Shown here: positions 3,365-18,670 of the stretch, piece by piece
Layout of the letters: each line of letters begins with the position of its first letter
Numbering within the stretch: the stretch's first letter is position 1
Origin: Bacteroidaceae bacterium
Lineage (GTDB): Bacteria; Bacteroidota; Bacteroidia; Bacteroidales; Bacteroidaceae
DNA length: 64,000 nucleotides
Direction: 5' to 3'
Assembly: GCA_017509605.1 (NCBI GenBank)
Contig: JAFWPH010000037.1
Coordinates: 62,001 to 126,000 of the forward strand
Program-made: the position numbers and the translations under genes
The notes under the pieces: generated by a model
The model's input: only the letters and a program-made list of their open reading frames with translations
Databases searched by the model: none
What the model was told of the DNA's origin: nothing

Positions 3365-3488
3365 TGATTCCGCTAAAACAATCTCCCATGTCGGTCAACA
3401 CATGACAAAGATGGACGACGCAATCGTTTGCATTCGCTTACTCTGTTAAAAATAGCGAAGAAAACGAGTGATAAATCCATATAATCCT

Positions 3489-3496
3489 TATTTTTG
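3489..3496 (+). promoter_or_regulatory. Bacteroidetes -7 box of the amylase gene
   Basis: TATTTTTG matches the TAnnTTTG -7 consensus and lies 45 nt before the alpha-amylase ATG. No convincing TTTG -33 box is seen at the right distance. Confidence 0.5.
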
Positions 3497-3540
3497 CATC
3501 GTCATTGTGACATAAACTTGATTAATCAACAACAAAGGAT

Positions 3541-5535
3541 ATGAAAAAGACTTTATTGGGATGGCTTTGCGCCATGATGCTCTTGCCGCAAACCGTTGCG
3601 GCACAGGGTTGGCCCTCGAACTACGAGGGTGTGATGCTACAGGCTTTCTACTGGGACTCATACACGGATACTGCTTGGCCATATCTGGAGAGCCAGTCCG
3701 ACGAACTGGCTGAGTTCTTCGACCTGATTTGGATACCACAGAGCGGAAACTGCGTTTATGGATACGGAGAGAACAAGATGGGATACACACCCGTCTATTA
3801 CTTCGACCACAACAGCTCTTTCGGAAGCGAGGCCGAACTGCGCTCACTCATCTCAACCATGAAGGCCAAAGGCGTGGGCATGATCGCAGACGTGGTCATC
3901 AACCACCGAAGTGGCGTTTCTAACGATGTGGACTTCCCGGCTGAGACCTGGAACGGCAAAACTTACCAGATGACCACAGCCGACATCTGCAAAACCGACG
4001 AATGTAACCGTAACGGATTTCCCACTACGGGCGCCAATGACACTGGTGACGACTTCAACGGAAGCCGCGACCTCGACCACACCAGCGCCAATGTCCAGGA
4101 CAACATCAAGGCTTACCTCAATTTCCTGATCAACGACCTCGGCTATGCTGGCTTCCGCTACGACATGGTCAAGGGATACTCGGCAAGTTACACCGCTTTA
4201 TACAACGTGGCTTCTAAGCCTGAGTTCTCTGTGGGAGAGTATTGGGATGGATATGCCAGCATCGAAAGGTGGATTGACAACACAAAAGACGGAGGAGTAG
4301 TGCAGTCGGCGGCCTTCGACTTCCCGACCAAGTACTTGCTCAACGATGCGTGCAAGACCTTCCAATGGAACAAACTCAATACTTCCGCTTCGCTCATCGC
4401 AAACGACAACTACAAACGATATGCCGTGACTTTCGTTGATAATCACGATACATACCGCACTGATTACGGCAGCACCAACCCGTTGACTTCAAATATTACT
4501 GCAGCCAATGCTTATATCATCTCAATGCCTGGAACTCCTTGCGTATTCTTGCCGCATTGGCAGAAGTACAAGGGAGAAATCAAGGCCATGATCGATGCTC
4601 GCAAACTCGCTGGCATACACAACCAGAGCAAGGCTACCGTGAAAGTGAGTTCCGCCAACCAAATCGCATTCGAGGTGGAAGGAACAAAGGGCAAGTTGTT
4701 ACTTTGCCTTGGCAACACCACATACAATGCTGGCGATGACTATGTGGAGGCTTGTAGCGGAACCAACTACAAGATTTGGGTATCAAAGTCGTGCAACTCG
4801 GTGCTTGTCACACCATCAAGCGGTGAGTACGAACAGGGAACAGAAGTGAAGATTACACCTGTCACGACAGACAGCGGAGCGAAGGTCTGCTACACTACCG
4901 ACGGCTCTGATCCCTATACCGCTTACGCCAAGGCTGTGACTGGTGCTACTACACTCGCCATAAATGACAACATGACATTAAGGGCGCTACTCGTACTTTC
5001 CGATGGTACCAAGACCAAAGAGGTGCGTCGGGACTATACAATGGCGCAGCCTTTCCAACCCACCACCATCTCCCTCTATGTCAAGTCTCCGTTGTGGAAT
5101 CCGCCATACGTCTATGCTTGGGATAGTGATGGAACAGCATCGGGTGCTGTCAACAAATGGCCAGGTGCGGCGATGACTGCCACAACCATCAATGGCGAGA
5201 CTTGGTATAAGTACGACTTTAAGAAGAACACTGCTGACTACCGCTACAATGTCGTCCTTAACGACGGTGGAAAGGGCAGTCAGACCGTCGATATCACCAA
5301 CATCGCCGACAATGCCTACTACGAGATACTCACCACCCAGACCAGTGGCAAGTATATGGTGCAAGAGGTCACCGAGACGGTGGGCATCGAAGATGTTATC
5401 GCTACTGCTAAATCTGCAACCACCGACAACAAGGTCTATGACTTGCAGGGCAGGGTAGTTTCCCGTTATGGCAAAACCGCTTCATTGCCTGCTGGCACCT
5501 ACATCATCAACGGCAGGAAAGTGCTGGTGAGATAA
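3541..5535 (+). CDS. Secreted alpha-amylase, GH13, with C-terminal starch-binding-like module
   Basis: Hydrolyses alpha-1,4-glucan. A signal peptide (MKKTLLGWLCAMMLLPQTVAAQ) is followed by a GH13 barrel: MLQAFYWDSY near the start, then the expected catalytic triad in GFRYDMVKGY (Asp208, nucleophile), VGEYWDGY (Glu233, acid/base) and FVDNHDTYR (Asp303). After the barrel come a chitobiase-type beta-sandwich (about residues 420-500, CYTTDGSDPY) and a CBM26-like starch-binding module (about 510-605, WNPPYVYAWD and WPGAAM). The C-terminal tail VYDLQGRVVSRYG...IINGRKVLVR resembles tails on other exported proteins here. The enzyme is exported, probably surface-attached or released. It has its own -7 box, and a strong terminator follows immediately. 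Confidence 0.93.
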   Translation: MKKTLLGWLCAMMLLPQTVAAQGWPSNYEGVMLQAFYWDSYTDTAWPYLESQSDELAEFFDLIWIPQSGNCVYGYGENKMGYTPVYYFDHNSSFGSEAELRSLISTMKAKGVGMIADVVINHRSGVSNDVDFPAETWNGKTYQMTTADICKTDECNRNGFPTTGANDTGDDFNGSRDLDHTSANVQDNIKAYLNFLINDLGYAGFRYDMVKGYSASYTALYNVASKPEFSVGEYWDGYASIERWIDNTKDGGVVQSAAFDFPTKYLLNDACKTFQWNKLNTSASLIANDNYKRYAVTFVDNHDTYRTDYGSTNPLTSNITAANAYIISMPGTPCVFLPHWQKYKGEIKAMIDARKLAGIHNQSKATVKVSSANQIAFEVEGTKGKLLLCLGNTTYNAGDDYVEACSGTNYKIWVSKSCNSVLVTPSSGEYEQGTEVKITPVTTDSGAKVCYTTDGSDPYTAYAKAVTGATTLAINDNMTLRALLVLSDGTKTKEVRRDYTMAQPFQPTTISLYVKSPLWNPPYVYAWDSDGTASGAVNKWPGAAMTATTINGETWYKYDFKKNTADYRYNVVLNDGGKGSQTVDITNIADNAYYEILTTQTSGKYMVQEVTETVGIEDVIATAKSATTDNKVYDLQGRVVSRYGKTASLPAGTYIINGRKVLVR

Positions 5536-5550
5536 AACGATTTCAATGAC

Positions 5551-5592
5551 TCAGACCTGTCAGACAGGCATGTCTGACAGGTCTGACTTTTT
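5551..5592 (+). terminator. Rho-independent terminator after the amylase gene
   Basis: A perfect 16-bp inverted repeat (5551-5566 with 5571-5586) with a 4-nt loop GGCA is followed by a T run. It begins 16 nt after the amylase stop. It lies inside the upstream extension of the next open frame, which argues that the next gene starts at 5615. Confidence 0.85.
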
Positions 5593-5614
5593 CATAGAAC
5601 TTATAACTTCAAGA

Positions 5615-8188
5615 ATGATGGATAAACTCACTCTTCGTCACGCTATGACCGTATGCCTTTTGGCCTACGGCCTTTGTGCTTTCTCGCAGTCACCACGCAG
5701 CGAGACCATGCTCACACATTGGCGTTTCTCACACAACGACAATCCCTCACAGGCGCAATCCGACTTCAACGACAGTAAGTGGGAACAGGTGACCGTTCCA
5801 CACGACTGGGCTATCGCAGGTCCGTTCGACAAGGAAATAGACAAACAGACCGTGGCTATCGTACAGAACGGCGAGAAGGAAGCCACCGAGAAAACAGGTC
5901 GCTCAGGTTCACTGCCCTGGATCGGAACAGGATGGTACCGCACCCAGTTCACCGTGCCTAAGGACTGTGGATGTGCCTGGCTCAACTTCGATGGCGCCAT
6001 GGCCGAACCTCAGGTCTATGTCAACGGTCAGTTGGCGGGCGAATGGAAGTATGGATACTCTGCATTCAACGTCGATATCACTCCTTATGTCAATAAGGAT
6101 GGCAGTCCCAACACCGTTGCAGTGCGTCTGCAGAATCTCGAGGAGAGCAGCCGATGGTACCCGGGAGCAGGACTCTTCCGACCTGTGACTCTCGTGACGA
6201 CCTCCAAGACCCATATACAGCCATGGGGTATTGATGTGCAGACACTCCAATGCAACATGTTCACCAGCACTGCCAGACTCAAGGTCGTCGTAAGGGTTGC
6301 TGAAAGAAATCAGGAAGAGACGGTTCGCTTCACTTTTAATGGCAAGGACTTCGACTTGGAGTTCAAAGCTAATAATGGCTTTCCTCAGAACAGAACCGCA
6401 AGTGCTGAAATCACTTTGGAAGATGTGGTGGGCTGGTATCCCAACAATCACCCCAAACTCTACGATGCAAAGGTCAGCATCCTCGACAAGCAAGGACGCA
6501 CAGTGGATGCCAAATCGTTCAAATACGGCATCCGTACAATCACTTACGGAGAGAGTTACGTCGATGTTAATGGTAAAGCAGGACTGAAAGGATTCTATAT
6601 CAATGACATGCCTTTTCAGTTCAAAGGCGTGTGCCTACACCACGACCTCGGCATGATTGGAGCAGCGGTCAACAAGGCCGCCCTGACACGCCAGCTTCAA
6701 CTGCTCAAGTCGATGGGGTGCAATGCCATTCGCACATCCCATAACATGCCTTCACAGTGGCAGATGGACCTCTGTGACTCCCTTGGCATCATGGTCATGG
6801 CGGAGTCGTTCGATATGTGGCGCTACCCCAAGTGCAAGAACGGCTACGCGCGTTTCTACGAAGACTGGTGGCAACGCGACCTTACCAATCTGGTGCGTGC
6901 CAACCAGTTGCATCCTTCCATCGTGATGTGGTCAATCGGTAATGAGATACCGGAACAGGGTATGAAGGAGGGGAACCAGATGACGCGCGACATGCAGAAC
7001 CTCATGCACAAACTTGACCCCACACGTCCCGTCACTGCTGGTATGGACCGCATTGACAACGCGCTCTCCACGGGTTATGCACAGATCCTCGACATCCCGG
7101 GCATGAACTACCGCACACATAAATACGAGATGGCTCATGAGAAATTGCGTCATGGTTTCCTCCTCGGTAGCGAGACTGCAAGCACCGTCTCATCGCGCGG
7201 TGTCTATAAGTTCCCTGTCGAATACAGTAAGGGTGCGAAATACGATGACGGACAGTGCTCGGGCTACGATGTGCAGGCTTGCTCGTGGAGCAATGTGCCA
7301 GAAGAGGATTGGGTGCTCCAGGACGACAAACCATGGGTGATGGGAGAGTTCGTGTGGACGGGCTTCGATTATCTTGGAGAGCCGACTCCTTACGACGAGT
7401 ACTGGCCCAGTCGAAGCAGTTATTTCGGTATCTTCGACCTTGCCGGACTCCCCAAAGACCGCTATTGGCTCTATCGCTCACGATGGAACACCAAGCAACA
7501 TACCATCCACCTCTTGCCTCATTGGAATTGGAAAGGACGTGAGGGTGAGGTGACACCTGTCTATTGCTATACCGACTATCCGTCAGCTGAACTCTTTATC
7601 AATGGCAAGAGCCAGGGACGTATCAGCAAAAACGCATCTCTTGACGGCTCGCAGGGACCTGCTTTCGACCGCTATCGTCTGCGCTGGAACGAGGTGAAAT
7701 ATGAACCTGGTGAAATCAAGGTGGTGGTTTATGACAAGGATGGGAAAGCCGTTGGCGAGCAGGTGGTGAGAACCGCTGGAGCCCCCGACCATATCGAACT
7801 CATAGCAGACCATGGAGTGGCTAATGGACTGACCTCGTATGCGGATATGAAACCTACCGACGACCCAACACTCGTGAGTCTGTCCGAACCCGTCAAGGCG
7901 GATGGAGAAGACATCGTCTTCATCACGGCGGTGGCGGTCGATAAGGAGGGCAATATCTGCCCCGATGCCGACAACCAACTCAACGTCAAGGTTTCTGGCA
8001 ATGCCCGTTTCCGCGGCATTTGCAATGGCGACGCCACTTCGCTGGAGGTGTTCACAAAACCTACCATGCGTCTCTTCCATGGCCGACTCGTCATCGGTGT
8101 GCAGACCACAGACAAGCCCGGCCCCATATCCGTGAACGTCTCGGGCAAAGGACTCAAATCTGCCTCGCTAAAATTGAATTCCAAATGA
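5615..8188 (+). CDS. GH2 beta-galactosidase-like enzyme with DUF4982-type C-terminus
   Basis: Exo-acting glycosidase of the GH2 clan. ATG 5615 (or 5618) is chosen because it gives a signal peptide (MMDKLTLRHAMTVCLLAYGLCAFSQ) and lies after the terminator hairpin; the open frame extends back to 5546. Order: N-terminal jelly roll (PHDWAIAGPF, GTGWYR), immunoglobulin-like domain, TIM barrel with acid/base Glu444 in MWSIGNEIPEQ and nucleophile Glu520 in LGSETASTVS. A DUF4982-like beta-sandwich (HWNWKGREGEVTPVY...ELFINGKSQG) and a final Ig-like domain follow. About 857 residues, normal for this subfamily. It probably acts on galactose-containing plant or host glycans in the periplasm. Beta-glucuronidase or arabinosidase specificity is possible; the clan assignment is firm, the substrate is not. 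Confidence 0.9.
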   Translation: MMDKLTLRHAMTVCLLAYGLCAFSQSPRSETMLTHWRFSHNDNPSQAQSDFNDSKWEQVTVPHDWAIAGPFDKEIDKQTVAIVQNGEKEATEKTGRSGSLPWIGTGWYRTQFTVPKDCGCAWLNFDGAMAEPQVYVNGQLAGEWKYGYSAFNVDITPYVNKDGSPNTVAVRLQNLEESSRWYPGAGLFRPVTLVTTSKTHIQPWGIDVQTLQCNMFTSTARLKVVVRVAERNQEETVRFTFNGKDFDLEFKANNGFPQNRTASAEITLEDVVGWYPNNHPKLYDAKVSILDKQGRTVDAKSFKYGIRTITYGESYVDVNGKAGLKGFYINDMPFQFKGVCLHHDLGMIGAAVNKAALTRQLQLLKSMGCNAIRTSHNMPSQWQMDLCDSLGIMVMAESFDMWRYPKCKNGYARFYEDWWQRDLTNLVRANQLHPSIVMWSIGNEIPEQGMKEGNQMTRDMQNLMHKLDPTRPVTAGMDRIDNALSTGYAQILDIPGMNYRTHKYEMAHEKLRHGFLLGSETASTVSSRGVYKFPVEYSKGAKYDDGQCSGYDVQACSWSNVPEEDWVLQDDKPWVMGEFVWTGFDYLGEPTPYDEYWPSRSSYFGIFDLAGLPKDRYWLYRSRWNTKQHTIHLLPHWNWKGREGEVTPVYCYTDYPSAELFINGKSQGRISKNASLDGSQGPAFDRYRLRWNEVKYEPGEIKVVVYDKDGKAVGEQVVRTAGAPDHIELIADHGVANGLTSYADMKPTDDPTLVSLSEPVKADGEDIVFITAVAVDKEGNICPDADNQLNVKVSGNARFRGICNGDATSLEVFTKPTMRLFHGRLVIGVQTTDKPGPISVNVSGKGLKSASLKLNSK

Positions 8189-8194
8189 CACACA

Positions 8195-8222
8195 AAGGGC
8201 TGGCTTCTCAGAGCCAGCCCTT
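8195..8222 (+). terminator. Stem-loop terminator after GH2 gene
   Basis: An 11-bp perfect stem (AAGGGCTGGCT with AGCCAGCCCTT) with a 6-nt loop begins 7 nt after the stop codon. The T-rich stretch follows after a short AT segment, so efficiency is uncertain. Confidence 0.6.
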
Positions 8223-8234
8223 ATAATATCTATC

Positions 8235-8288
8235 GTCCTTTTTAACTCCCATGAGCGTAGCGAATGAACTCCCGATTTAACTCCTTTT
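8235..8288. repeat. Intergenic AACTCC(C) word tract
   Basis: Three copies of an AACTCC(C) word, two with a preceding T run (TTTAACTCCC...GAACTCCC...TTTAACTCC). The same word fills the spacers at 33545-33572 and 43595-43752. Confidence 0.6.
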
Positions 8289-8314
8289 TTATAACTACCG
8301 AAACTTTAGTCATC

Positions 8315-9070
8315 TCATTCCTTAACCTTGATCTTGATGGTTTCCGTCACGTCGCCGTTGCCCGATGCTGTGGCATGGAGAATGAACTCCGCACGTTGCA
8401 AATCGCTGATGTTGCGGTTGGCTTTCACCTTGGCGGTATAGCGAAGAGTCTGCCCTGCGTTCAGCCTCACTGTCTTAGAAGGGGAAATCTGGAAATAACC
8501 TGCCTGAGAGGTCACCGGACTGACGTTGAGGTTCACCGAACGGAGGTTCTTGTCGCTGTAGTTGGTCACGTCGAAAACAATGCTGATGACCTCGTTCTTG
8601 CCGAACATACCGTCACCGTTGGTGTCGTAGTAACTCTTGTTGGAGATGGAGATGCAGCGCTTCGATACCGGAGTACCAACTACCACCTCGCTCTCGAAGT
8701 CTCGGTCAGTGTCATAGACATCATCGTAGCCGCGACTGTCATAACGTCTGTCATCATAACGTCTGTCATCGTAACGTCTGTCATCGTAACGTCTGTTATC
8801 GTAGCCTCCGCGGCGTTCGGCACGTGACTCAGCCTCCTGACGGGCTTCTTCTTCCACTGCGGAAGAGATACCGTAACCAATGGCTGCGCCGGCTATCGCA
8901 CCGACAACACTGCCCATGGCCGCATCACCACGGTAACCGCCCATGGCACCGATGCCTCCGCCGATGATACTGCCTAACTGGGTGCCTATAGAGGTTCCCA
9001 TGTAGGTTGTGGGGGTGCAGCTGCTCAGTAGCAGTGCAGTTGACATGAAATAAACGATGGACTTTTTCAT
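8315..9070 (-). CDS. Glycine-zipper lipoprotein with YDDRR repeats
   Basis: A 251-residue exported protein. The lipobox LLLSSC places the lipidated Cys at residue 18. Next comes a Gly/Ala-rich glycine-zipper segment (about residues 30-75, IGTQLGSIIGGGIGAMGG and GSVVGAIAGAAIGYG), as in small outer-membrane lipoproteins. A charged region follows with YDDRR repeated in tandem (about 90-115) and a C-terminal beta-rich domain of about 120 residues (SISNKSYYDTNGDGMFGKNE...DVTNYSD...LRYTAKVKANRNISDLQ). It is likely anchored in the outer or inner membrane and may have an envelope-stabilising role; the function is not known. It has its own -7 box upstream. Confidence 0.8.
   Translation of the reverse strand: MKKSIVYFMSTALLLSSCTPTTYMGTSIGTQLGSIIGGGIGAMGGYRGDAAMGSVVGAIAGAAIGYGISSAVEEEARQEAESRAERRGGYDNRRYDDRRYDDRRYDDRRYDSRGYDDVYDTDRDFESEVVVGTPVSKRCISISNKSYYDTNGDGMFGKNEVISIVFDVTNYSDKNLRSVNLNVSPVTSQAGYFQISPSKTVRLNAGQTLRYTAKVKANRNISDLQRAEFILHATASGNGDVTETIKIKVKE
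8745..8804 (-). repeat. Four 15-bp tandem repeats coding RRYDD
   Basis: Units of the CGTCTGTCATCGTAA type at 8745, 8760, 8775 and 8790 are nearly identical and in frame, so unit gain or loss would change protein length by five residues without a frameshift. Confidence 0.85.
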
Positions 9071-9192: not shown

Positions 9193-10011
9193 TTATGCAT
9201 GTTCTAACCAATCGTCAATCAACTTCCTTGCTATCGACATCTTGCCGGGGATGGCGGGCATTTCCTTGCGCCCGAACCAACCGCTCTTCGACAACTCCTC
9301 TTGCTGGATCTTCACCTCACCGCTCACATAGTCTGCCGTAAAACCAATCATGATACCGCAGGGGTAGGGCCAGGGCTGAGAACCGAAATAGCGGATGTTG
9401 GTCACCTTCAGATGGGTTTCCTCCCACACTTCGCGCTCTACGCATTGCTCCAGTGTCTCGCCCGTTTCCACAAAACCTGCCACCAGACCGTAGTAGTCGG
9501 AACGGAAGTTACGAGCATGGACCAGAAGGATCTTCTCGTTCTCGGGAATGTCGGGTGTGTCGTTGCGGCGGATCCTCACAATGATGGCGGGCGATACCTG
9601 AGGCCATATCTCCTTGCCGCAATGCGTGCATTTCTTGCTGATGACGGTGGCGGGTTTCATCGGGGCACCGCACACACCACAAAACTTGGTGTTGCTGTCC
9701 CAATACAGCAACTCGGCTCCCTTGCCTGCCATGTCGTAGAAGGACTTGGGAAGGTATTGATATGATGCACGGAGTCCGACGCTTTCCAACTCACCTTTGC
9801 GTACGGCTTCGGGAGGGGTGTTCACACTGAAGGCGCGGCACTCATGCCCATTCAATTCCGGCAACTGCTGCACGTAGGTCCATGCCTGTATCGGTGCTGG
9901 CGCTTCCTCCTGCAACGGCACACTGTAGCCGTCCTCTTCTTTTTTCAGCAGCACACAACCGCTGATAAACACAAACCAGTATATTCTTCTGTCTTCCTTT
10001 TTGTTTTTCAT
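9193..10011 (-). CDS. nudC: NAD(+)/NADH pyrophosphatase (NudC-type Nudix hydrolase)
   Basis: Hydrolyses NADH to NMNH and AMP; homologues also remove NAD caps from RNA. Three diagnostic parts are present in order: a four-Cys zinc ribbon (Cys111, Cys114, Cys128, Cys131, in CGVCG...CTHCG), a Nudix box beginning GFVETGETLEQ (Gly179, Glu185, Arg193-Glu194, Glu197-Glu198), and SQPWPYP at 211-217, the signature separating NudC from other Nudix enzymes. The usual Gly after the EE pair is His200, a mild deviation. At 272 residues the length matches the family. Cytoplasmic. It stands alone; the next minus-strand gene upstream (10251) belongs to an AT-rich island. Confidence 0.93.
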   Translation of the reverse strand: MKNKKEDRRIYWFVFISGCVLLKKEEDGYSVPLQEEAPAPIQAWTYVQQLPELNGHECRAFSVNTPPEAVRKGELESVGLRASYQYLPKSFYDMAGKGAELLYWDSNTKFCGVCGAPMKPATVISKKCTHCGKEIWPQVSPAIIVRIRRNDTPDIPENEKILLVHARNFRSDYYGLVAGFVETGETLEQCVEREVWEETHLKVTNIRYFGSQPWPYPCGIMIGFTADYVSGEVKIQQEELSKSGWFGRKEMPAIPGKMSIARKLIDDWLEHA

Positions 10012-10161
10012 ATCTCTTTATCTCTCTTTTTCCGTCGGATTCGACTCGTCTTTCGACTAAATTGAATATAAACTAAGGCTATTTTTCTGTGTGTTCAAAT
10101 AGATGTCAAAAGCTTTTATTCACATGTGTTTTTAATATATCGTAAGTTGTGATGTAGTAAC

Positions 10162-10198
10162 TTCGACTAAAAACCAATTCTTCTACTTTTTAGTTCGA
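10162..10198 (-). terminator. Candidate AT-rich terminator of the island operon
   Basis: An imperfect inverted repeat (TCGACTAAAAA with TTTTTAGTTCGA) lies about 55 nt past the last stop of the minus-strand operon, and the minus strand then runs through TTTTT. The stem has a one-base bulge, so support is modest. Confidence 0.35.
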
Positions 10199-10250
10199 GT
10201 TAGGTCATATCATTCCTTTTTCATATCCAAATAAATGCATTGATGATCAG

Positions 10251-11069
10251 TTATATTCGATACAGTCGGAAACCATCTTTTATCGAATAGTTACTTATGT
10301 CATTTATTAATGGGTCATTTAATATATAATACATAATAGATGAGAAAAATTCTTGGAGACAACAAATATCTTTATTCTTTTTGTCCTTTATCAAATATGA
10401 AGCGTATCCTATATAATCATTTTCATCATCTTGAAGATGGTCTAATTTGTAGTAATTGCCAGAATTTAGAGACAGAATTGCATTGGGTAACCATTCTTTG
10501 TCAGGCCAATCGAATAATTCCTTTTGAAAAAATAAATAGTCCTTATTTTTGAACTTTGGAAACTTGTATTGAAAAAACCACCTTTGAAGAGATTTTTTAG
10601 AGATTGAGCTGAAGATGAAAATATAAAAACAGTTCACTCCAAGTTCGTTCAATTTTTCAAATGCCTTAAGTGTAGTAGAAAATGACTTATACCTAATAGA
10701 TGATTTCACTTCAATTACAGCAATCACAGAAGATATATTAATTATCTTTAAGTCTCCAATAGAATATGCAATAGCTCTTTTTTCCTTTCGGTGAATAATA
10801 ATATCACACTGATTAGAAATGTTGTCATCCTTTATTGTATTATTGTTGATTATAAAACCTTGGCATACATCAAAGCCTTTCGGTAATATACGTTTTATCG
10901 CCAATCGAAGAGCCTGTTCTCCAACATATCCGATAGATGGTTTGTGTTTAGCAAAAAGACTCCTAGCCCTATGCATTTTACTAAGAAGGGATGATGCTTG
11001 TTGTCTATATCTATCTTTATTTATCATATTAACAATCCATGAGTTGAACAATAATATGGCAAACATCAC
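10251..11069 (-). CDS. DUF6602-like protein with PD-(D/E)XK nuclease motifs
   Basis: Last gene of the AT-rich operon. Its pattern is that of a restriction-endonuclease-like fold: GYVGEQALR (Glu51), SNQCDIIIH (Asp89) and VIAVIEVKSS (Glu120, Lys122), giving E...D...ExK. DUF6602 proteins have this arrangement and occur near defence and mobile genes; that link is general knowledge, not shown here. The rest (FYIFIFSS, a mixed alpha/beta C-terminal half) shows no motif I recognise. ATG 11069 leaves only 3 nt after the previous stop, but the first 14 residues are unusually hydrophobic, so Met15 (11027) may be the true start. Probably a DNA-cleaving effector or a nuclease-fold sensor; biochemical activity is inference. 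Confidence 0.7.
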   Translation of the reverse strand: MMFAILLFNSWIVNMINKDRYRQQASSLLSKMHRARSLFAKHKPSIGYVGEQALRLAIKRILPKGFDVCQGFIINNNTIKDDNISNQCDIIIHRKEKRAIAYSIGDLKIINISSVIAVIEVKSSIRYKSFSTTLKAFEKLNELGVNCFYIFIFSSISKKSLQRWFFQYKFPKFKNKDYLFFQKELFDWPDKEWLPNAILSLNSGNYYKLDHLQDDENDYIGYASYLIKDKKNKDICCLQEFFSSIMYYILNDPLINDISNYSIKDGFRLYRI

Positions 11070-11072
11070 TTT

Positions 11073-11330
11073 TCAACAATTTGACTCTTCCTTTTGGGTA
11101 TCCATAATCAACCAATCTATCTCACTGAATGAATAGATTATAGGATAACCTTTGTTCTCCATGTTCTTCAGTGTCTGCAACAGCCAATGAGATTCTGCAT
11201 CACATGCTTCACACGTGCCGATGCAATCTTCTGTATTATTGCATCGATGAGGAGAATAAGTGATATTATTCAATTCTGCAAGTCTAATTCTTATAGCTTT
11301 TAATAATGCGCATTTCTCCTTTCCGTTCAT
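11073..11330 (-). CDS. Small Cys-rich protein, putative Fe-S or zinc protein
   Basis: 85 residues, not recognised as a named family. A cysteine cluster at residues 30-43 (CNNTEDCIGTCEAC) has spacing Cx5Cx3Cx2C; the last three Cys copy the CX3CX2C spacing of radical SAM enzymes although there is no room for a barrel. A helical segment (HWLLQTLKNMENKG) and PIIYSFSEIDWLI follow. Its start overlaps the radical SAM gene stop by 4 nt, and its stop is 3 nt before the next start, so co-translation is likely. It may be an accessory electron-transfer or cluster-carrying partner of the radical SAM enzyme; that role is inference. The tight overlaps make it a real gene despite its size. Confidence 0.7.
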   Translation of the reverse strand: MNGKEKCALLKAIRIRLAELNNITYSPHRCNNTEDCIGTCEACDAESHWLLQTLKNMENKGYPIIYSFSEIDWLIMDTQKEESNC

Positions 11331-11956
11331 AATTTTACCCTCGTTTTATATTGAAAGATATCAAAATTGGAATAGCCTATATCCTCTATAAAGTGCTTAC
11401 TTTTATAGATATCATCTAAAGTGTTATACCCATCTATAAACGGAATTCGAATAACTACATGGTTTACAAAGCCTACAATAGCAAGTCGCTTAAGGTTCTC
11501 AACTACAACTGCATTACTAGATTGAGTATACGATTCATATATTAATGGATCAATATCTTTAATATCAACAATCATTTCGTTGATGAAGGGTAGCAAGTAA
11601 TCAATATTATTATATGGAACATTCAAAGATGTTTCAATTGTAACATTCCATTTTTTTGCACCTAAATTAAGAACATCTCCAATAAAATGTGGGTATAATA
11701 AAGGTTCTCCTCCTCCAAATGTAACACCTCCACCTGTATTTAGATAATATAATTCGTCTTTAGCAACAACATCATATACTTCGTCAGGTCGAAAATAAGT
11801 AACATCAGACAATGCTCTATGACATTGAGGATTCAAACAATAGCTACATTTTAAAGGGCATCCATAAAAAGCAACCAATGTGGTAATACCTTTTCCATCA
11901 GTACCAATCCGTAGCCGATTAATTCCCATAATTGGCGCAAGACTATTCCTTTTCAT
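11327..11956 (-). CDS. Radical SAM protein, glycyl-radical-activase-like
   Basis: 209 residues. CPLKCSYC (Cys33, Cys37, Cys40) binds the 4Fe-4S cluster that splits S-adenosylmethionine; GGGVTFGGGEPLL (75-87) is the SAM-binding glycine motif, and this spelling is typical of pyruvate formate-lyase activase and NrdG-like enzymes. It is shorter than PFL activase and has no extra ferredoxin insert. No glycyl radical enzyme is adjacent; instead it overlaps the end of the 1258-residue Sel1/LRR protein by 14 nt and the small Cys-rich protein by 4 nt. It may therefore modify, or install a radical on, one of its neighbours. Cytoplasmic, oxygen-sensitive. Family assignment is strong, substrate unknown. 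Confidence 0.88.
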   Translation of the reverse strand: MKRNSLAPIMGINRLRIGTDGKGITTLVAFYGCPLKCSYCLNPQCHRALSDVTYFRPDEVYDVVAKDELYYLNTGGGVTFGGGEPLLYPHFIGDVLNLGAKKWNVTIETSLNVPYNNIDYLLPFINEMIVDIKDIDPLIYESYTQSSNAVVVENLKRLAIVGFVNHVVIRIPFIDGYNTLDDIYKSKHFIEDIGYSNFDIFQYKTRVKL

Positions 11957-14900
11957 ATTCTTTTACGATGAATTGTCTGTCCATCCCATATCCATAATCT
12001 CTATGTTGATTATAGAGATCATGGTTGTATATAGCAGAAAAATGTAAAATATTAGAATACCCAGAGGGGACAATAATCTCAATTTTAATGAATGAATTAA
12101 AGTCCACATTATTTCTTTCTGTACATTCCTCGACAGAACTACCCATTGCTGTGTTTGGAGACCAGTATTCTTCTGGTAAAAAAGAAGGTGCTTCTCTTAA
12201 GAATACTTCCTCATTAGCTTTGGTCTTTGTCCCATAGAAGCGAATAACTCTCAAATCATAACAATCAAATAAAGAACCTTTCTGGATATCCTCTACAGTT
12301 GAAGGAATATCAATTCTGTTTAATTTTGAACATTCCCCAAAGCACCCCATAGGAATTATCTGTATTTTACATTTCTGCCAGATGACTTTTTCCAATAATT
12401 CTGCTTTGTAAAATGCCCATGGTTGAATTTCAACAATGTTTGCGCCCATAAAGATATCAGTAACCTTTGAGTTATAGAATGCAAAAGGTTTTACTCTGCA
12501 TATTGGAGGGTATAACGCAATCTCGGCATCTTCAAAATGTGCTATCAATTCACCTTTTTCAACATTATATAACAATCCATTTTCAGAAACAAATCTATTA
12601 TTATCCAAACATTTAATATGCAATGTTCCGATAAAAGGATTTATTCCAATCTTATTAACTTGTGATGGTATAATAATTGTATCAATTGGGCATTGAAAGA
12701 AGCAAAAATCGCCTATTTCTTGGAGATTGTCACTTAAAGAAATATATTTAAGGTCACAATACGCGAAACATGAATTACCAATCTTTCTTACTGAATTAGG
12801 AAGTACGAGATGTTGTAATTCATAGTTTGAATTAAATGCATCATTTGCTATCTCAACAAGGGATTCAGGAAGAACTAACTTCGAAATATTACAGCCCATA
12901 AAAGTTTCTTCTTTTATCATACTGATATCCCCGAGGGAAAGTACTTCTGTTAGAGACTCGCAACCATAGAAACTTTTGGACCCAATATTAGTGACACTCT
13001 TTGGTAAAATGATTCTTTGTAAATTAAAACAATACATAAAAGCGCCGTCTTCAATAAAATGCAGGGTATCTGGAAATCGTAAATCCAAAATATTTTCATT
13101 TTCGTAGAAAGCGTTTTCTCCTATGGTTTCAATCCCGTAAGGTATTGTGTATTTCGAATCTTTTCCAAAATATGAAACTAGTTTCTTTTTATCCTGTGTG
13201 AACAATGCAAAGTCCGAAACGATATAGTTTGGTGAATGACAAACTATTCGAATTGATTTACGACCTCCCCAACCATTCTTTACAAAAGGATTTTTCCCAA
13301 TTAATACAACAGATGATGGTATTGTTATTATGTCAGCAGTTCCAAAGTAGAAAGCGTTGTCACATATTATTCTCGTTCCTGTAGGTATCTTGTATTCTTT
13401 TGATTGTTGGATGCCAAGACTAATTAGTACTTTCTTGTCCTTTGAATAGATTGCACCATAGGGGTCTTTAATGGAGTTCGCGTCTTCTTGAATAGAACAA
13501 AACCTATAAAGAGACGTTATACGCTTGACTTTAATTAATGATTCTATGTGTCCTAACCTAGCTGCTTTTTCATAATATGAATGTGCGTTTTTAATGTTCT
13601 TAATGGTTGCGATACCATATTGCATGCATTTCCCCACTATATACAGTGCTTGAGTGTCACCTTCGTCTGCTTTTGCAATAAAGAAGTTAATAGCATCTTC
13701 CGAATTTTTAATTTGATTACAAAGGGTAGCTTTGGAGTAGTATTTTGAATACCAAATTAACGCTTCTTCATTGTTCTTATTTGTACCAAATCCTTTAAAG
13801 TAAAAGAATGCAATCTTTCCAAGCGACTCAAAATCAGATTTTTTAGCGGCCTCATAAGTCCAAAAAAATACTTTGTTAGGATCTGGTTCAACCCCGGTTC
13901 CATTAAGAAAACATGTAGCAAGATTCTTTTGAGCTTTAATGTTTCCCATTTTTGCTGATTGTTCATAATAGGAAATAGCTTTTGATAAATCTATATTAGT
14001 ACCTTTTCCATATTCATAACAAACTGCCAAATTGTTGAGAGCTGCTGAATTATTCTGTTGTGCCGCTTGTGAATACCAATTAAATGCAGATTCCAGGTCT
14101 TTTTTTACGCCATAGCCATTTGAGTAAAATAGTCCCACATAGAATTGTGCAGAATCACTGCCTTGTTTGGCTGCTTCATAATACCATTTGAATGCCTTTT
14201 GGGGATCTTTTTCTTGCCCCAATAATCCATTCCAATATATTTCACCCAATTTCTTTTGAGCTGAACAATATCCTAGTTCGGCTGATTTTGTAAATAACTC
14301 CAAAGCTTTTTCATCATTAATTTTCTCTACCAATTTTCCAGATTGGCAATAGTCTGCTAAAATATAGCACGATTTAGGGTCATTTAGATTAACTGCCTCT
14401 TTTAAAACATCTATCGCAGTCTTTTCATTTCTATCAGTTCCTAATCCATAAAGATAACATAAATATAAAGGATAAAATGCTTTAGCAAAGCCTTGGTCTG
14501 TAGCCCTTTTTAACCAAATAAAAGCGTTGTTATAATCTTTTTCAACGCCAATACCTTTTAAAAAGAAAAGGCCTAATTTGTATTGACAATAGGGATGATT
14601 CAATTCTGCCCCTTTGAAGTAAAAAGCAAACGCTTTCTGAGAATCTTTTTCAACACCTTTTCCTATACTATATAGGTTCCCAATATTGCCAAAAGCAGAT
14701 GGGTATTTTTGTTCTGCTGATTTTCTATACCAATCAAGTGCTTGTTGGAAGTCCTGTTTAATCCCGAATCCTTTTTCATACCATAAGCCCAACTGATTCT
14801 GACATCTTTTGTCTCCCGATTTTGCACATACAAGTAATTTGTTAAATAGCTTTTCGTATTGTTCACCTGTAAGATTCTGATTTACATCACCTTTATTGTT

Positions 14901-15719
14901 AATGAAAGCTAATGCTTCGTCAAATACTATATCGCAGTATGAGTGTAGTGAATCTGAACATAAAAGGACTGCGCATGTCCAATCCTTTTCTTTATCTATT
15001 TGTCGTTTGTCAAAATAATGTTCAAAATAGATGTTTTTATCAATAGTGGAAGCAAATGACTTTAATCTTTGCAGGCGTTGAGTATTCTGCATGGGGGAGA
15101 CTATAATATACTCATTAACTCCAACAGATTGTTCTTTGACAATCTGGGAAAAGTGTGAAAGATTGAATGACTCTATATCTAAAATATTGGATAAAAGATG
15201 AATTGTGGGTATATCAGAAGATAGTTTCAAATCTTCATTTGTTAATTCATCAAAATTCTTGTTTATGGTGATAATATCTGTTTCTGGGTAGAACCTAGAA
15301 CAAAGTAATTCCGCTCTTGATAGTGCCATCACTGATGGTTCAATTAATATAATTCGTTTAACTTTCAGTTCAGAATTATGTTCTAAGACAAAATCATGAA
15401 AACAAATCGTTGCCAACCCCTGACCACATCCATAATCGACGATTTCAACATGATTGAACTCTAATATTCTTTTCTGAATATTGTTATATGCATATTGTAA
15501 TTTAGCATTGTGCATCTTTCCGAACGAATATATGTACATCTGCAATAATGGTTCAGAGTCCAATATATCAATACCTCTATTTAAGGACTCGTGCAATTCA
15601 TCACACAAGTTGCTAGGCAACTTTTGAACAAAATCGGAGGCAATATCCCAAACTTTCATAAATGAAGGATTTACCATGTGTTCAATGAGGTATGAGTATG
15701 TGGTTTTACATTCTTTCAT
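11943..15719 (-). CDS. Methyltransferase-like / Sel1-repeat / BspA-type leucine-rich-repeat fusion
   Basis: 1258 residues, cytoplasmic (no signal peptide). Residues about 60-280 look like a class I SAM methyltransferase: VEIVDYGCGQGLATICF (motif I, 95-101) and IILIEP (acidic Glu127). About 290-740 hold roughly 12 Sel1 repeats of about 36 residues (AxxxLGxxYxxGxGVxKDxxxAxxWYxxAAxxG). About 750-1190 hold BspA-type leucine-rich repeats (IPxxVxxIGxxAFxxCxxLxxIxLPxSV). BspA-type repeats are usually on secreted proteins, so a cytoplasmic fusion to a methyltransferase-like fold is unusual. The C-terminal tail contains PSGY and RDYGYG (Arg1240-Gly1245), faintly like a glycyl radical site. It overlaps the DUF1848 gene upstream by 4 nt and the radical SAM gene downstream by 14 nt. 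Likely a scaffold or sensor; function not established. Confidence 0.85.
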   Translation of the reverse strand: MKECKTTYSYLIEHMVNPSFMKVWDIASDFVQKLPSNLCDELHESLNRGIDILDSEPLLQMYIYSFGKMHNAKLQYAYNNIQKRILEFNHVEIVDYGCGQGLATICFHDFVLEHNSELKVKRIILIEPSVMALSRAELLCSRFYPETDIITINKNFDELTNEDLKLSSDIPTIHLLSNILDIESFNLSHFSQIVKEQSVGVNEYIIVSPMQNTQRLQRLKSFASTIDKNIYFEHYFDKRQIDKEKDWTCAVLLCSDSLHSYCDIVFDEALAFINNKGDVNQNLTGEQYEKLFNKLLVCAKSGDKRCQNQLGLWYEKGFGIKQDFQQALDWYRKSAEQKYPSAFGNIGNLYSIGKGVEKDSQKAFAFYFKGAELNHPYCQYKLGLFFLKGIGVEKDYNNAFIWLKRATDQGFAKAFYPLYLCYLYGLGTDRNEKTAIDVLKEAVNLNDPKSCYILADYCQSGKLVEKINDEKALELFTKSAELGYCSAQKKLGEIYWNGLLGQEKDPQKAFKWYYEAAKQGSDSAQFYVGLFYSNGYGVKKDLESAFNWYSQAAQQNNSAALNNLAVCYEYGKGTNIDLSKAISYYEQSAKMGNIKAQKNLATCFLNGTGVEPDPNKVFFWTYEAAKKSDFESLGKIAFFYFKGFGTNKNNEEALIWYSKYYSKATLCNQIKNSEDAINFFIAKADEGDTQALYIVGKCMQYGIATIKNIKNAHSYYEKAARLGHIESLIKVKRITSLYRFCSIQEDANSIKDPYGAIYSKDKKVLISLGIQQSKEYKIPTGTRIICDNAFYFGTADIITIPSSVVLIGKNPFVKNGWGGRKSIRIVCHSPNYIVSDFALFTQDKKKLVSYFGKDSKYTIPYGIETIGENAFYENENILDLRFPDTLHFIEDGAFMYCFNLQRIILPKSVTNIGSKSFYGCESLTEVLSLGDISMIKEETFMGCNISKLVLPESLVEIANDAFNSNYELQHLVLPNSVRKIGNSCFAYCDLKYISLSDNLQEIGDFCFFQCPIDTIIIPSQVNKIGINPFIGTLHIKCLDNNRFVSENGLLYNVEKGELIAHFEDAEIALYPPICRVKPFAFYNSKVTDIFMGANIVEIQPWAFYKAELLEKVIWQKCKIQIIPMGCFGECSKLNRIDIPSTVEDIQKGSLFDCYDLRVIRFYGTKTKANEEVFLREAPSFLPEEYWSPNTAMGSSVEECTERNNVDFNSFIKIEIIVPSGYSNILHFSAIYNHDLYNQHRDYGYGMDRQFIVKEYEKE

Positions 15720-16804
15720 CTTCCTGTAATTGATTCACTAAAAGGTTTTTTCATAAATGTATTGTGATTCATCACTGCGGCGTTTTTACTGGTATTTGCA
15801 TAACAATACTCGCAAAGGTGAATACAGGTGTTGTACTCGCCAATGTCTTTACTCTTTATACATCCACAAAAAGCCCTTTGCCCCTTATCCTTGTTATCAC
15901 CATGGGTTGCATATGTGTTATTGGAAAGAATAATTGCATTGGGTGGGAGAGGAACCGAGTCGCCAAAAATAGAAGAACTCGGCAGTGGATGTATTTTGAC
16001 TTTTAAAAAGTCCATAAGTGTTTTGTTTTGATGGGCAAGTTTTATAATCAGTTCATCATCAATACAATGATTATGCTGAATACCATATTGTTTTAAGTCA
16101 ACTCTTTCACCACATGATGCTAAAGTAAACCCCCAAGACTGGTTGAGTTTTGCCAGTTCATTTGCAAATTTATGCATGTCATCTTCCATCCATTCTCTAC
16201 TTTTGAAACCGTTCTTTTCAAGATTAGTTTTTACATTTCTATACAATGATATATCGGCAAAGCTAAAAACTAGTTTCTCGGTATAGCCTTTCAATTGGTC
16301 GCCGATTCTCTCAATTTTTTCAAGAAGAGTATTAATATCAATTCTATCTATAAGTACCAAAGGGTCAAAACGCCATATCACACTACCATATCCAAGTTTG
16401 TCAACAAGTTGTTTGAACGAGCCGATGCGTTCTTTCAGTGACCTCACTCCTTTTTCTAATCCTTCTTTATCATAATCATTCAGAGTATATTGAATATAAC
16501 ATCCTATCTTCCTCCTTTTTAATTCATCTAGATGCGGCAATAATGGAGAAGGATATTTGGACCAAAAAACGATAAAGCAAGTATTCTTGTATGATACATA
16601 TCCTTTCACACCGTTAAAAGGATTTGTCCAAGAAGAATATCCCACTTTCAAACGATAGAAAAACCAATCAGCATAAAAAGCTGGTATATCAGTACTTCGG
16701 CTTGCCGAAATTATCTCTGGCACTTGCATAGATACCAGTTCGCCATTATCTCTTGATAAAATTTGTTTAGGCCATGTCGCCATCTCATAATATTGCTTTC
16801 TCAA
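15716..16804 (-). CDS. DUF1848 family protein with C-terminal CX3CX2C cluster motif
   Basis: First gene of the AT-rich operon, 362 residues. It opens with a barrel-like region (EIISASRSTDIPAFYADWFFYRL, WTNPFNG, IVFWSKYPSPLLPHL, YTLNDY, SVIWRFDPLVL) that I recognise as DUF1848. It ends with a Cys cluster FCGCIKSKDIGEYNTCIHLCEYCYAN (Cys313, Cys315, Cys327, Cys331, Cys334). The CIHLCEYC spacing CX3CX2C equals the radical SAM cluster motif but sits at the C-terminus, as in relatives of spore photoproduct lyase. Reaction unknown. A good promoter lies 37 nt upstream, and its stop overlaps the next gene by 4 nt. The start could also be Met8 (MATWPKQ). Confidence 0.82.
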   Translation of the reverse strand: MRKQYYEMATWPKQILSRDNGELVSMQVPEIISASRSTDIPAFYADWFFYRLKVGYSSWTNPFNGVKGYVSYKNTCFIVFWSKYPSPLLPHLDELKRRKIGCYIQYTLNDYDKEGLEKGVRSLKERIGSFKQLVDKLGYGSVIWRFDPLVLIDRIDINTLLEKIERIGDQLKGYTEKLVFSFADISLYRNVKTNLEKNGFKSREWMEDDMHKFANELAKLNQSWGFTLASCGERVDLKQYGIQHNHCIDDELIIKLAHQNKTLMDFLKVKIHPLPSSSIFGDSVPLPPNAIILSNNTYATHGDNKDKGQRAFCGCIKSKDIGEYNTCIHLCEYCYANTSKNAAVMNHNTFMKKPFSESITGR

Positions 16805-16840
16805 GCTCTTCTTTAAGGTTTAATAAATTAATTGTGTTTA

Positions 16841-16871
16841 CAAAAATATAAATATATAATAAACTATCAAA
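16841..16871 (-). promoter_or_regulatory. Promoter of the five-gene AT-rich operon
   Basis: On the minus strand TTTG (16871-16868), a 19-nt spacer and TATTTTTG (16848-16841) fit the Bacteroidetes -33/-7 consensus exactly. It lies 37 nt before the DUF1848 start and is the only strong promoter I see for the operon. Confidence 0.8.
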
Positions 16872-16927
16872 ATAATGAAACAATAAAAATGATAATACCA
16901 CGAATAATACAAAATCATGTCTCTTTT

Positions 16928-18670
16928 CTATCTCTCTCTGCTCTCCTCACCGTTGTTCTCGGAATATGATTTACGTTTGATGTTGTTGGCTTCGCCGAAG
17001 AGTTGCTCGCGCTCGCGCTTAGTGGCGGCGGACACCCAGTCTTCGGGAATGAACTTCCAGTGGTTGTGGGCGGTTGGGGTAATCACTCCCTTCTCCTTGA
17101 TGTATTCCATCAGGTAGTAACGGATATCCTTAACGGTCGAAGAAACGGTTCTTGATTCTATTTCGCTTTTCGTCAGTCCAGCCCCCTTGGTCAGTAACTC
17201 ACCGCCACCGTTGGCGCGGTAGGCGGTCATGGCCACAGTATAGAAACGCTCCATATCGAAGGGACTGCCGTCATTCATCGAGATGATGTTAACCTTCTCG
17301 CCCTCGGGTTTGCTGACATCCACCGTATAACGAATGCCGGCAACTGAATCGAAGTTGAAGAGGAAGTTCTTGAAACCCAAACGGAGGGGATTGTTCTTCA
17401 TGGGCTCGGTCAGAAGCAGTTTGTCATCGGGACCCTGCATTTGGCATGTCCACAGCGCATAACTCATCTCCAAGTAGTTCTTGATCTCGATGCCACGCAT
17501 ACGGAGGGTGTAGAGACGATCCTCAAAACGGTAGAGGTTGAAGAGACTGTTCACCTTTACCTCGCCTGCCTCTATTGACGCGTTGAAGAAGAGGGGGGCC
17601 GAAAACGACAACTCGGCTTTCGACACGTGCAACTGCAATTCCTGAATCAGATCGATGTAGGCGGAGGAACCGAAGTAGGCGTCGCTGATATCCACACGGC
17701 TGGCAAAACTGCCGATCTGCTGGGACGCGAACTGAGACACAGCTTTGTATTCCTCGGCGAACTGACGTTCATACTCCTTCGCATAGCTGTTGTGGAAGGT
17801 GCCGATGTAGATGGACTGACACGATGACTCGTTCTTCACTACCTTGCCCACGCGGTTGAGCGTGAAACGCATCTTCACCTCCGAGATAGAGTAGGCCAGA
17901 CTGCCCGGGTTCACGCAGAGGATGCTGCGCCCTGAGGGCGACTCCACGCTCTCCATGTTGCTGGTGTGGTCGTGCCCGTATAGCACCAAGTCGAAGCCAT
18001 CCACCTCGCTCACAGTCTCGCGAACGGCGTTCTCACGGTAGTCGTCGGTTACGATGCCATTGTCCATACCGCTGTGGATCAGACCAATGATGCAGTCAGG
18101 GCGCTCATTCTGCTTCACGTAGGCTATCCAACGACGTGCGCTCTCCTTGATGTCCTCAAAGTGCATGTCGTCCCAAATCTTCTTCGGTATCCAGTGGGGA
18201 ATGGCAGGAGTGATGAAACCAATGATGCAAAGGCGGATGCCGCAACGAGTGAGGATGGTGTAAGGACGGAAGTAGGGGAGACCTGTGGTGTTGTTGATGG
18301 CGTTGGCACCAAGGATAGGGTGGTTGCAGCTGTTGACAAAACGGTCGAAGTTCTCGTGACCCGTCTCGATGTCATGGTTACCAATCACACCCACATCGTA
18401 GCCCACGAAATTGCACATATCAGCCACGCTGTGACCCTTGCGCATGTCAATGTAGTTGAAGTAGTAAGCGGTGGGCTCTCCTTGAAGCATGTCACCGCCA
18501 TCGATGAGGATGGTGCTCTCGGGATAGCGCTTGCGCTGTTTCTTCACGTAGGCATAAACACGTTGCAAACTACCCTTACCCCAGTGCTCGTGGCGGAAGT
18601 CATAAGGGAAATAATTGCCGTGGATATCGCTCGTGAAGATAATCTTCAGTTGTTTTGTCCGGGTCTCCAT
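16928..18670 (-). CDS. Bifunctional metallophosphatase / 5'-nucleotidase family protein
   Basis: 580 residues. The N-terminal calcineurin-like metallophosphatase has the dimetal motifs FTSDIHGN, DGGDMLQG, GNHDIE and YGHDHTS, and its pattern matches UshA-type enzymes that dephosphorylate nucleotides or UDP-sugars. The C-terminal 5_nucleotid_C domain (about 310-540) has YRANGGGELLTKGAG, the nucleoside-base pocket motif. No signal peptide is visible (METRTKQLKIIFTSDIHGN), unlike periplasmic UshA, so a cytoplasmic location or an unusual export route is possible. It is separated from the AT-rich operon by about 120 nt and has its own -7 box 4 nt before the ATG. Confidence 0.88.
   Translation of the reverse strand: METRTKQLKIIFTSDIHGNYFPYDFRHEHWGKGSLQRVYAYVKKQRKRYPESTILIDGGDMLQGEPTAYYFNYIDMRKGHSVADMCNFVGYDVGVIGNHDIETGHENFDRFVNSCNHPILGANAINNTTGLPYFRPYTILTRCGIRLCIIGFITPAIPHWIPKKIWDDMHFEDIKESARRWIAYVKQNERPDCIIGLIHSGMDNGIVTDDYRENAVRETVSEVDGFDLVLYGHDHTSNMESVESPSGRSILCVNPGSLAYSISEVKMRFTLNRVGKVVKNESSCQSIYIGTFHNSYAKEYERQFAEEYKAVSQFASQQIGSFASRVDISDAYFGSSAYIDLIQELQLHVSKAELSFSAPLFFNASIEAGEVKVNSLFNLYRFEDRLYTLRMRGIEIKNYLEMSYALWTCQMQGPDDKLLLTEPMKNNPLRLGFKNFLFNFDSVAGIRYTVDVSKPEGEKVNIISMNDGSPFDMERFYTVAMTAYRANGGGELLTKGAGLTKSEIESRTVSSTVKDIRYYLMEYIKEKGVITPTAHNHWKFIPEDWVSAATKREREQLFGEANNIKRKSYSENNGEESRER

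Follow-up and report, generated by a model that had tools for sequence, protein, structure and literature searches.

The window analysed here is a 64-kb stretch of a Bacteroidaceae genome (assembly GCA_017509605.1, contig JAFWPH010000037.1, positions 62,001 to 126,000), and the gene in question encodes a 1258-residue protein that joins a methyltransferase-like head to Sel1 repeats and BspA-type leucine-rich repeats (LRRs). This protein is one architecture of a gene cassette with a fixed core, a DUF1848 protein plus the head, around which the repeat or helicase part of the head protein and the neighbouring gene are exchanged. The cassettes form an apparently undescribed family that is widespread and mobile in bacteria. 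We think it reasonably probable that these cassettes are conflict systems of modular build that act inside the cell, most likely against phage, and whose constant core is a protein resembling radical S-adenosylmethionine (SAM) enzymes, DUF1848, plus a methyltransferase. With a fixed pair of SAM-using enzymes that takes up exchangeable recognition parts and toxin-like partners, the family probably represents a class of anti-phage defence not recognised so far.

An earlier sequence-only reading of this DNA had proposed a single intracellular recognition protein. Its sensor layout and toxin-like partners agree with that idea, but the protein does not stand alone: it is one form of a DUF1848 and methyltransferase system. 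That reading also had the protein translated together with a radical SAM enzyme, without noting the DUF1848 partner, the small cysteine-rich open reading frame (ORF), the DUF6602 nuclease gene or the island boundaries. The operon consists of five packed genes in the order DUF1848, methyltransferase-Sel1-LRR, short radical SAM, 85-residue cysteine protein and DUF6602, laid out below with all gene coordinates given as positions within the window.

15716-16804 (likely ATG at 16783), minus strand: DUF1848 protein (Pfam PF08902, E = 2.3e-90)
11943-15719, minus strand: methyltransferase-Sel1-LRR ORF, 1258 amino acids, ATG start
14940-15719, minus strand: residues 1-260, head with a predicted methyltransferase fold (alignments and structure)
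13515-14864, minus strand: residues ~286-735, ~11 Sel1 repeat units (Pfam Sel1, E = 1.5e-79)
12225-13514, minus strand: residues ~736-1165, BspA-type LRR_5 repeats (Pfam LRR_5, E = 2.6e-58, 4 stretches)
11943-12224, minus strand: residues 1166-1258, C-terminal tail, the least conserved block after the linker
11327-11956, minus strand: short radical SAM protein with CxxxCxxC, glycyl-radical-activase-like (Pfam Radical_SAM, 2.6e-15)
11073-11330, minus strand: 85-residue cysteine protein with a CxxTxxCxGTCxxCxxE-like motif, accompanying the short radical SAM protein
10251-11069 (likely start ~11027), minus strand: DUF6602 protein (Pfam, 1.6e-17), in the exchangeable effector slot
10012-16927, unstranded: acquired island of ~6.9 kb (GC profile; site empty in three congeners)
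9193-10011 and 16928-18670: island flanks, NUDIX and 5′-nucleotidase genes

The methyltransferase-Sel1-LRR gene overlaps the upstream DUF1848 gene by 4 nt and the downstream short radical SAM gene by 14 nt, and to judge from these overlaps it is likely co-translated with both, as had been suggested for the radical SAM enzyme. The GC content of the island is 33% compared with 51% for the genome. Three congeneric genomes have the NUDIX and 5′-nucleotidase genes side by side, ~12-20 bp apart; because this gene pair is contiguous there and GC drops between its members here, the island is a discrete insertion of ~6.9 kb. It has no integrase of its own.

A constant gene pair and its exchangeable partners

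Of 301 genomes from the same bacterial family, 22 carry the head, at 24 loci; at phylum scale it was found in 3 of 345 genomes. One scan of bacterial genome contigs yielded 399 relatives, and the best 80 of these loci, picked because they are closest to the query, were looked at in more detail. In all 22 testable same-family loci DUF1848 adjoins the head directly or is separated from it by a few genes of the same operon (L036, L037). Fragmentary contigs account for the other two, L029 and L038; to judge from L168, the L029 locus may continue on another contig, beside DUF1848. Among the best 80 of the 399 loci, DUF1848 is present in 71 and is directly adjacent or fused in 54. A single ORF contains DUF1848, head and LRRs in L091 and L093. 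L091 (Clostridia) and L060 (Saccharibacteria) are metagenome-assembled genome records; L091 is probably mis-binned, since its fused ORF is identical to that of the Bacteroidales locus L093. Distances between heads correlate with those between DUF1848 proteins (Mantel r = 0.36, 0/2000 permutations), which shared host ancestry can also produce.

The pairing extends beyond this head. A separate DUF1848 lineage occurs with a different methyltransferase in operons encoding a NERD-methyltransferase protein and UvrD. The window genome itself carries a second DUF1848 gene (L047, G000:C10:6000-22000, 2368-8392), followed by a 1650-residue NERD-AAA_11/12 helicase with a C-terminal Rsm22-like methyltransferase; GC is low at this locus (0.36-0.37), and the methyltransferase matches Rsm22 weakly (E = 6e-4). 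DUF1848 plus a methyltransferase is thus a recurring unit, found in the head loci, the fusions, the NERD-methyltransferase operons and L047 alike.

The rest of the head protein varies. Its forms at the 24 same-family loci are DEAD helicase (8), NERD-UvrD (6), Sel1 plus LRR (2), LRR (2), Sel1 on a cut contig (1) and shorter proteins (5), the last with a helicase, SLFN_AlbA_2 or 2CompART/2CompARG gene alongside. LRR and Sel1 forms predominate among the best 80 of the 399 loci, and Sel1 and LRRs are sometimes divided between two genes (L057, L058, L059, L071). A search for the full architecture had been suggested on the basis of the sequence; the Sel1-LRR form does recur, but entire blocks of repeats come and go, or helicases take their place.

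The gene that follows repeat-type heads is likewise exchanged. It encodes DUF6602 in 10 loci and elsewhere FRG, SIR2, DUF3800, an AAA_15/OLD-like ATPase, RES, a Scabin-like protein or DUF2971. The DUF6602 protein of the window matches the PADLOC models PD_DExK (1.7e-23) and NucC (3.3e-13), and its nuclease motif, E / QCDII / (V/I)E(V/I)KSS, is intact and kept in all aligned homologues. With its E, D and ExK residues all kept, the protein is predicted to be a NucC-related PD-(D/E)xK nuclease. It thereby resembles the NucC and PD-(D/E)xK effectors of CRISPR and CBASS systems, but the island contains no cyclase or CRISPR module, and a trigger would need to come from the core.

Several related loci were seen in the course of this survey. 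In L174 (5056-13369), L173, L176 and L177 the operon consists of the NERD-methyltransferase gene, a small UvrD helicase gene, a gene for a protein of 765-823 residues without a convincing Pfam match, and DUF1848; in L174, a SLFN_AlbA_2 gene comes after DUF1848. The head protein in L036, L037, L038, L127, L128 and L131 has an N-terminal extension of ~220 residues and lies downstream of a 2CompART/2CompARG ADP-ribosylation protein, and if the contig extends far enough, DUF1848 and a small UvrD helicase are also present. Head relatives also occur in IMG/VR contigs (L132-L135, with DUF1848 in L133-L135) and in one unverified phage record (MT836254.1, L228). A stand-alone 280-residue relative without DUF1848 is encoded on a Moraxella osloensis plasmid (AP031476.1, L051, 7881-8723), ~3 kb from a gene annotated as a viperin-family antiviral radical SAM protein.

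Predicted folds of the core proteins and the repeat arrays

The head had been called methyltransferase-like from its DYGCGQG motif. Because the sequence-level match to methyltransferases is weak (Methyltransf_31, E = 0.036, below the Pfam cut-off), we aligned the head with 47 relatives and predicted its structure. Three motifs mark the family: D-[YW]-G-C-G-Q-[GA], [ILV]EPS and IHxFSN[IV]LD. DYGCGQG corresponds to residues 95-101, of which D95, C98, G99 and Q100 are invariant across 20 family members; in the same alignment the motif II glutamate, E127, an acidic residue at the end of strand 2, is nearly invariant. The AlphaFold2 model of residues 1-290 has a mean predicted local distance difference test score (pLDDT) of 90.7 and a predicted template modelling score (pTM) of 0.86, and comparison with known structures (VIA-align 2) gave Z ≥ 8 for 977 of the 1000 compared chains. 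The best matches, over 219-253 residues, were METTL17 chains (Z 17-18.7) and yeast Rsm22 (15.6-16.3), followed by GRAS proteins (Z 14-15, top 15.0) and then many class I methyltransferases. As modelled, the head has a class I methyltransferase fold, in line with the original call. SAM binding is plausible, given that the motif I residues and the motif II glutamate are conserved.

METTL17 and Rsm22 (PF09243) are assembly factors of the small mitoribosomal subunit. They resemble the head in fold, METTL17 clearly more so than the GRAS proteins, but share only 9-13% identity with it; heads of this family are, moreover, fused to repeats or helicases. The PF09243 model did not match the head sequence in Pfam, so that the similarity is one of fold only. 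The GRAS proteins (SCL7, SCR, SCL3) also have the class I methyltransferase fold, but they are plant transcription regulators, whereas in the head the SAM motif (D-x-G-C-G-Q and the motif II glutamate) is apparently intact.

DUF1848 carries a CxxxCxxC motif (C327, C331, C334) close to its C-terminus that is conserved in homologue alignments; Pfam's text on the family notes this C-terminal cysteine cluster. The AlphaFold2 model is a TIM barrel (pLDDT 90.2). The 27 best rows in VIA-align 2 were all radical SAM enzymes (Z 9.8-7.7), among them MqnE (9.8), Elp3 (9.1), RlmN (8.9), spore photoproduct lyase (8.7), PFL-AE (8.7) and viperin (8.1). As modelled, DUF1848 resembles the radical SAM superfamily, with a barrel that aligns best to these enzymes and a conserved CxxxCxxC, but the cluster motif of the superfamily is N-terminal, in the loop after the first strand of a partial TIM barrel, whereas that of DUF1848 lies at residues 327-334, at the C-terminal end. 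Judging from residue ranges and known motif positions, most of the alignments start past the N-terminal cluster motif of those enzymes. On these models, DUF1848 is likely a circularly permuted radical SAM protein. We hold this no more firmly because Z is modest throughout and comparing profiles did not bear it out: hhalign of DUF1848 with the window's own radical SAM protein, in normal or permuted order, was not significant (probability ~2.7%). By Foldseek alone nothing fell below E 0.001 and the matches were mostly generic TIM barrels, radical SAM enzymes coming out on top only in the second aligner.

Both repeat arrays proposed from the sequence are present. Pfam gives 10 Sel1 stretches and we counted 11 units by eye, at residues ~295-735, slightly fewer than the earlier figure of about 12. 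In a set of 13 full-length homologues of the Sel1-LRR form, pairwise identity averages 68% in the head, 50% in Sel1, 52% in the LRRs and 43.7% in the tail, and entropy is highest at residues ~360-480. The repeats are more variable than the head, as had been anticipated, yet they are not hypervariable; the two arrays may recognise a ligand. Neither the window protein nor its homologues, which share the same N-terminal start, have a hydrophobic N-terminus by inspection, in agreement with a cytoplasmic protein lacking a signal peptide. A surface adhesin of the BspA/HupY type was considered and rejected: the NCBIfam HupY model scored 100 bits against a cut-off of 1250, with its best stretch in the LRRs, and no export signal was seen by inspection.

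Proposed anti-phage defence and competing explanations

DUF1848 and the METTL17/Rsm22-like head, both presumably SAM-dependent and encoded by overlapping genes, would form the constant core. The exchangeable region of the head protein, Sel1 plus LRRs here and helicases elsewhere, would sense or bind an invader or its nucleic acid, and the core would transduce the signal. Once infection was detected, the core would release the exchangeable toxin-like protein encoded downstream, here the NucC-like DUF6602 nuclease, which could then do the killing. Phage would be the trigger in view of the effector types, the PADLOC relatives of DUF1848, DUF6602 and the helicase variants, the behaviour of the island and the sporadic distribution. 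Avs, bNACHT, CBASS and Thoeris are defence families of modular build, in which both sensor and effector can be exchanged. The DUF1848-methyltransferase cassettes have the same arrangement of conserved core, variable recognition part and variable toxin, but the Sel1-LRR form has no STAND/NACHT nucleoside triphosphatase (NTPase) or cyclase, its core being a radical SAM protein and a methyltransferase. In bacteria, cytoplasmic LRR sensors generally come with NTPase (NLR-like) proteins; the LRR and Sel1 arrays of this family are attached instead to a methyltransferase that is co-conserved with a radical-SAM-like protein.

More tentatively, the pair itself may be the switch of a new class of bacterial immune systems. 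DUF1848, as a putative permuted radical SAM protein, and the METTL17-like methyltransferase, with its interchangeable recognition module, might make or maintain a modification (of RNA, DNA, protein or a small molecule) whose alteration on infection frees interchangeable toxins, and the Sel1-LRR arrays might be pattern-recognition sensors that work without an NTPase. If the anti-phage reading is true, it adds a large family of defence or conflict systems whose enzymology is new, gives DUF1848 and DUF6602 a role, and makes testable whether radical SAM chemistry beyond viperin serves bacterial immunity.

DUF1848 matches the PADLOC model RTasDUF1848, although the five genes of the island include no reverse transcriptase. 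Helicase variants of the head protein match DpdF, PsyrT, C3a193 and C3a187. The head protein of the window gave no significant PADLOC match, and the core proteins match no system catalogued there. Several observations weigh against a defence function. SAM binding and radical chemistry are deduced from sequence motifs and structure models; general resemblance among helicases could account for the helicase matches; the matches to several effectors are weak (SIR2 1.8e-4, RES 6e-4, Scabin-like 3e-3); and many ORFs downstream of heads have no match at all. Nor did the flanks give a defence-island signal, since they were not enriched in PADLOC matches over controls: 45 families were counted compared with 64 in random regions of related genomes (91 vs 91 ORFs), in a crude test that counts families and in which a few control helicase and ATPase ORFs inflate the number. 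In a literature search whose coverage leaves out most subscription journals, DUF1848 and DUF6602 were unmentioned, and nothing joined LRR/Sel1 or BspA with antiphage activity or radical SAM/Rsm22 with defence; with most subscription papers outside that coverage, this absence is weak evidence of novelty.

The same gene content can be read in other ways. The core might mark host DNA or RNA, as in restriction-modification, while its helicase or nuclease partners attack nucleic acid that lacks the mark, DUF6602 being the cutter in the Sel1-LRR form. Many members do combine a methyltransferase with a helicase or nuclease (DEAD plus a weak MTES_1575 match, NERD-UvrD, the intact-motif DUF6602), but the head shows no recognisable target-recognition domain, its best fold matches being METTL17/Rsm22 and GRAS, and repeat-type members also pair with non-nucleases such as FRG; we regard this explanation as unlikely. 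Still less credible is a ribosome- or translation-directed function, in which head and DUF1848 would modify rRNA or tRNA as a regulatory or drug-resistance trait. It draws on the mitoribosome assembly factors that head the fold matches and on the presence of Elp3 and RlmN among those of DUF1848, but a fold match by itself shows no function, and the horizontal acquisition of the island, the sporadic occurrence of the cassettes, the exchange of toxin-like partners and the fusion to helicases do not suit it.

Just as improbable is a biosynthetic cluster for a peptide or small molecule, with the repeats as a scaffold. Two radical SAM proteins, a methyltransferase adjoining DUF1848 and the 85-residue cysteine protein would be its ingredients, and all 10 related loci that have the short radical SAM protein also encode the 85-residue one. 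Those two proteins, however, are found only with the full Sel1-LRR form and are therefore an accessory pair; the island contains no transporter, protease or obvious precursor, and nuclease, FRG, OLD-like and helicase partners fit such a cluster poorly.

Accessory pair and putative promoter

The short radical SAM protein lacks a ferredoxin domain and scored 138 bits against TIGR02494, below the curated cut-off of 174. For its 85-residue companion, neither Pfam nor NCBIfam gave a match above cut-off; this protein is possibly the substrate or cofactor partner of the radical SAM protein.

Inside the island, just 5′ of the operon, lies one further element.

16841-16871, minus strand: match to TTTG-N19-TANNTTTG, Bacteroidota-type promoter

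The Bacteroidota promoter consensus matches at 6 places in the 64 kb compared with 0.39 expected from shuffled sequence.
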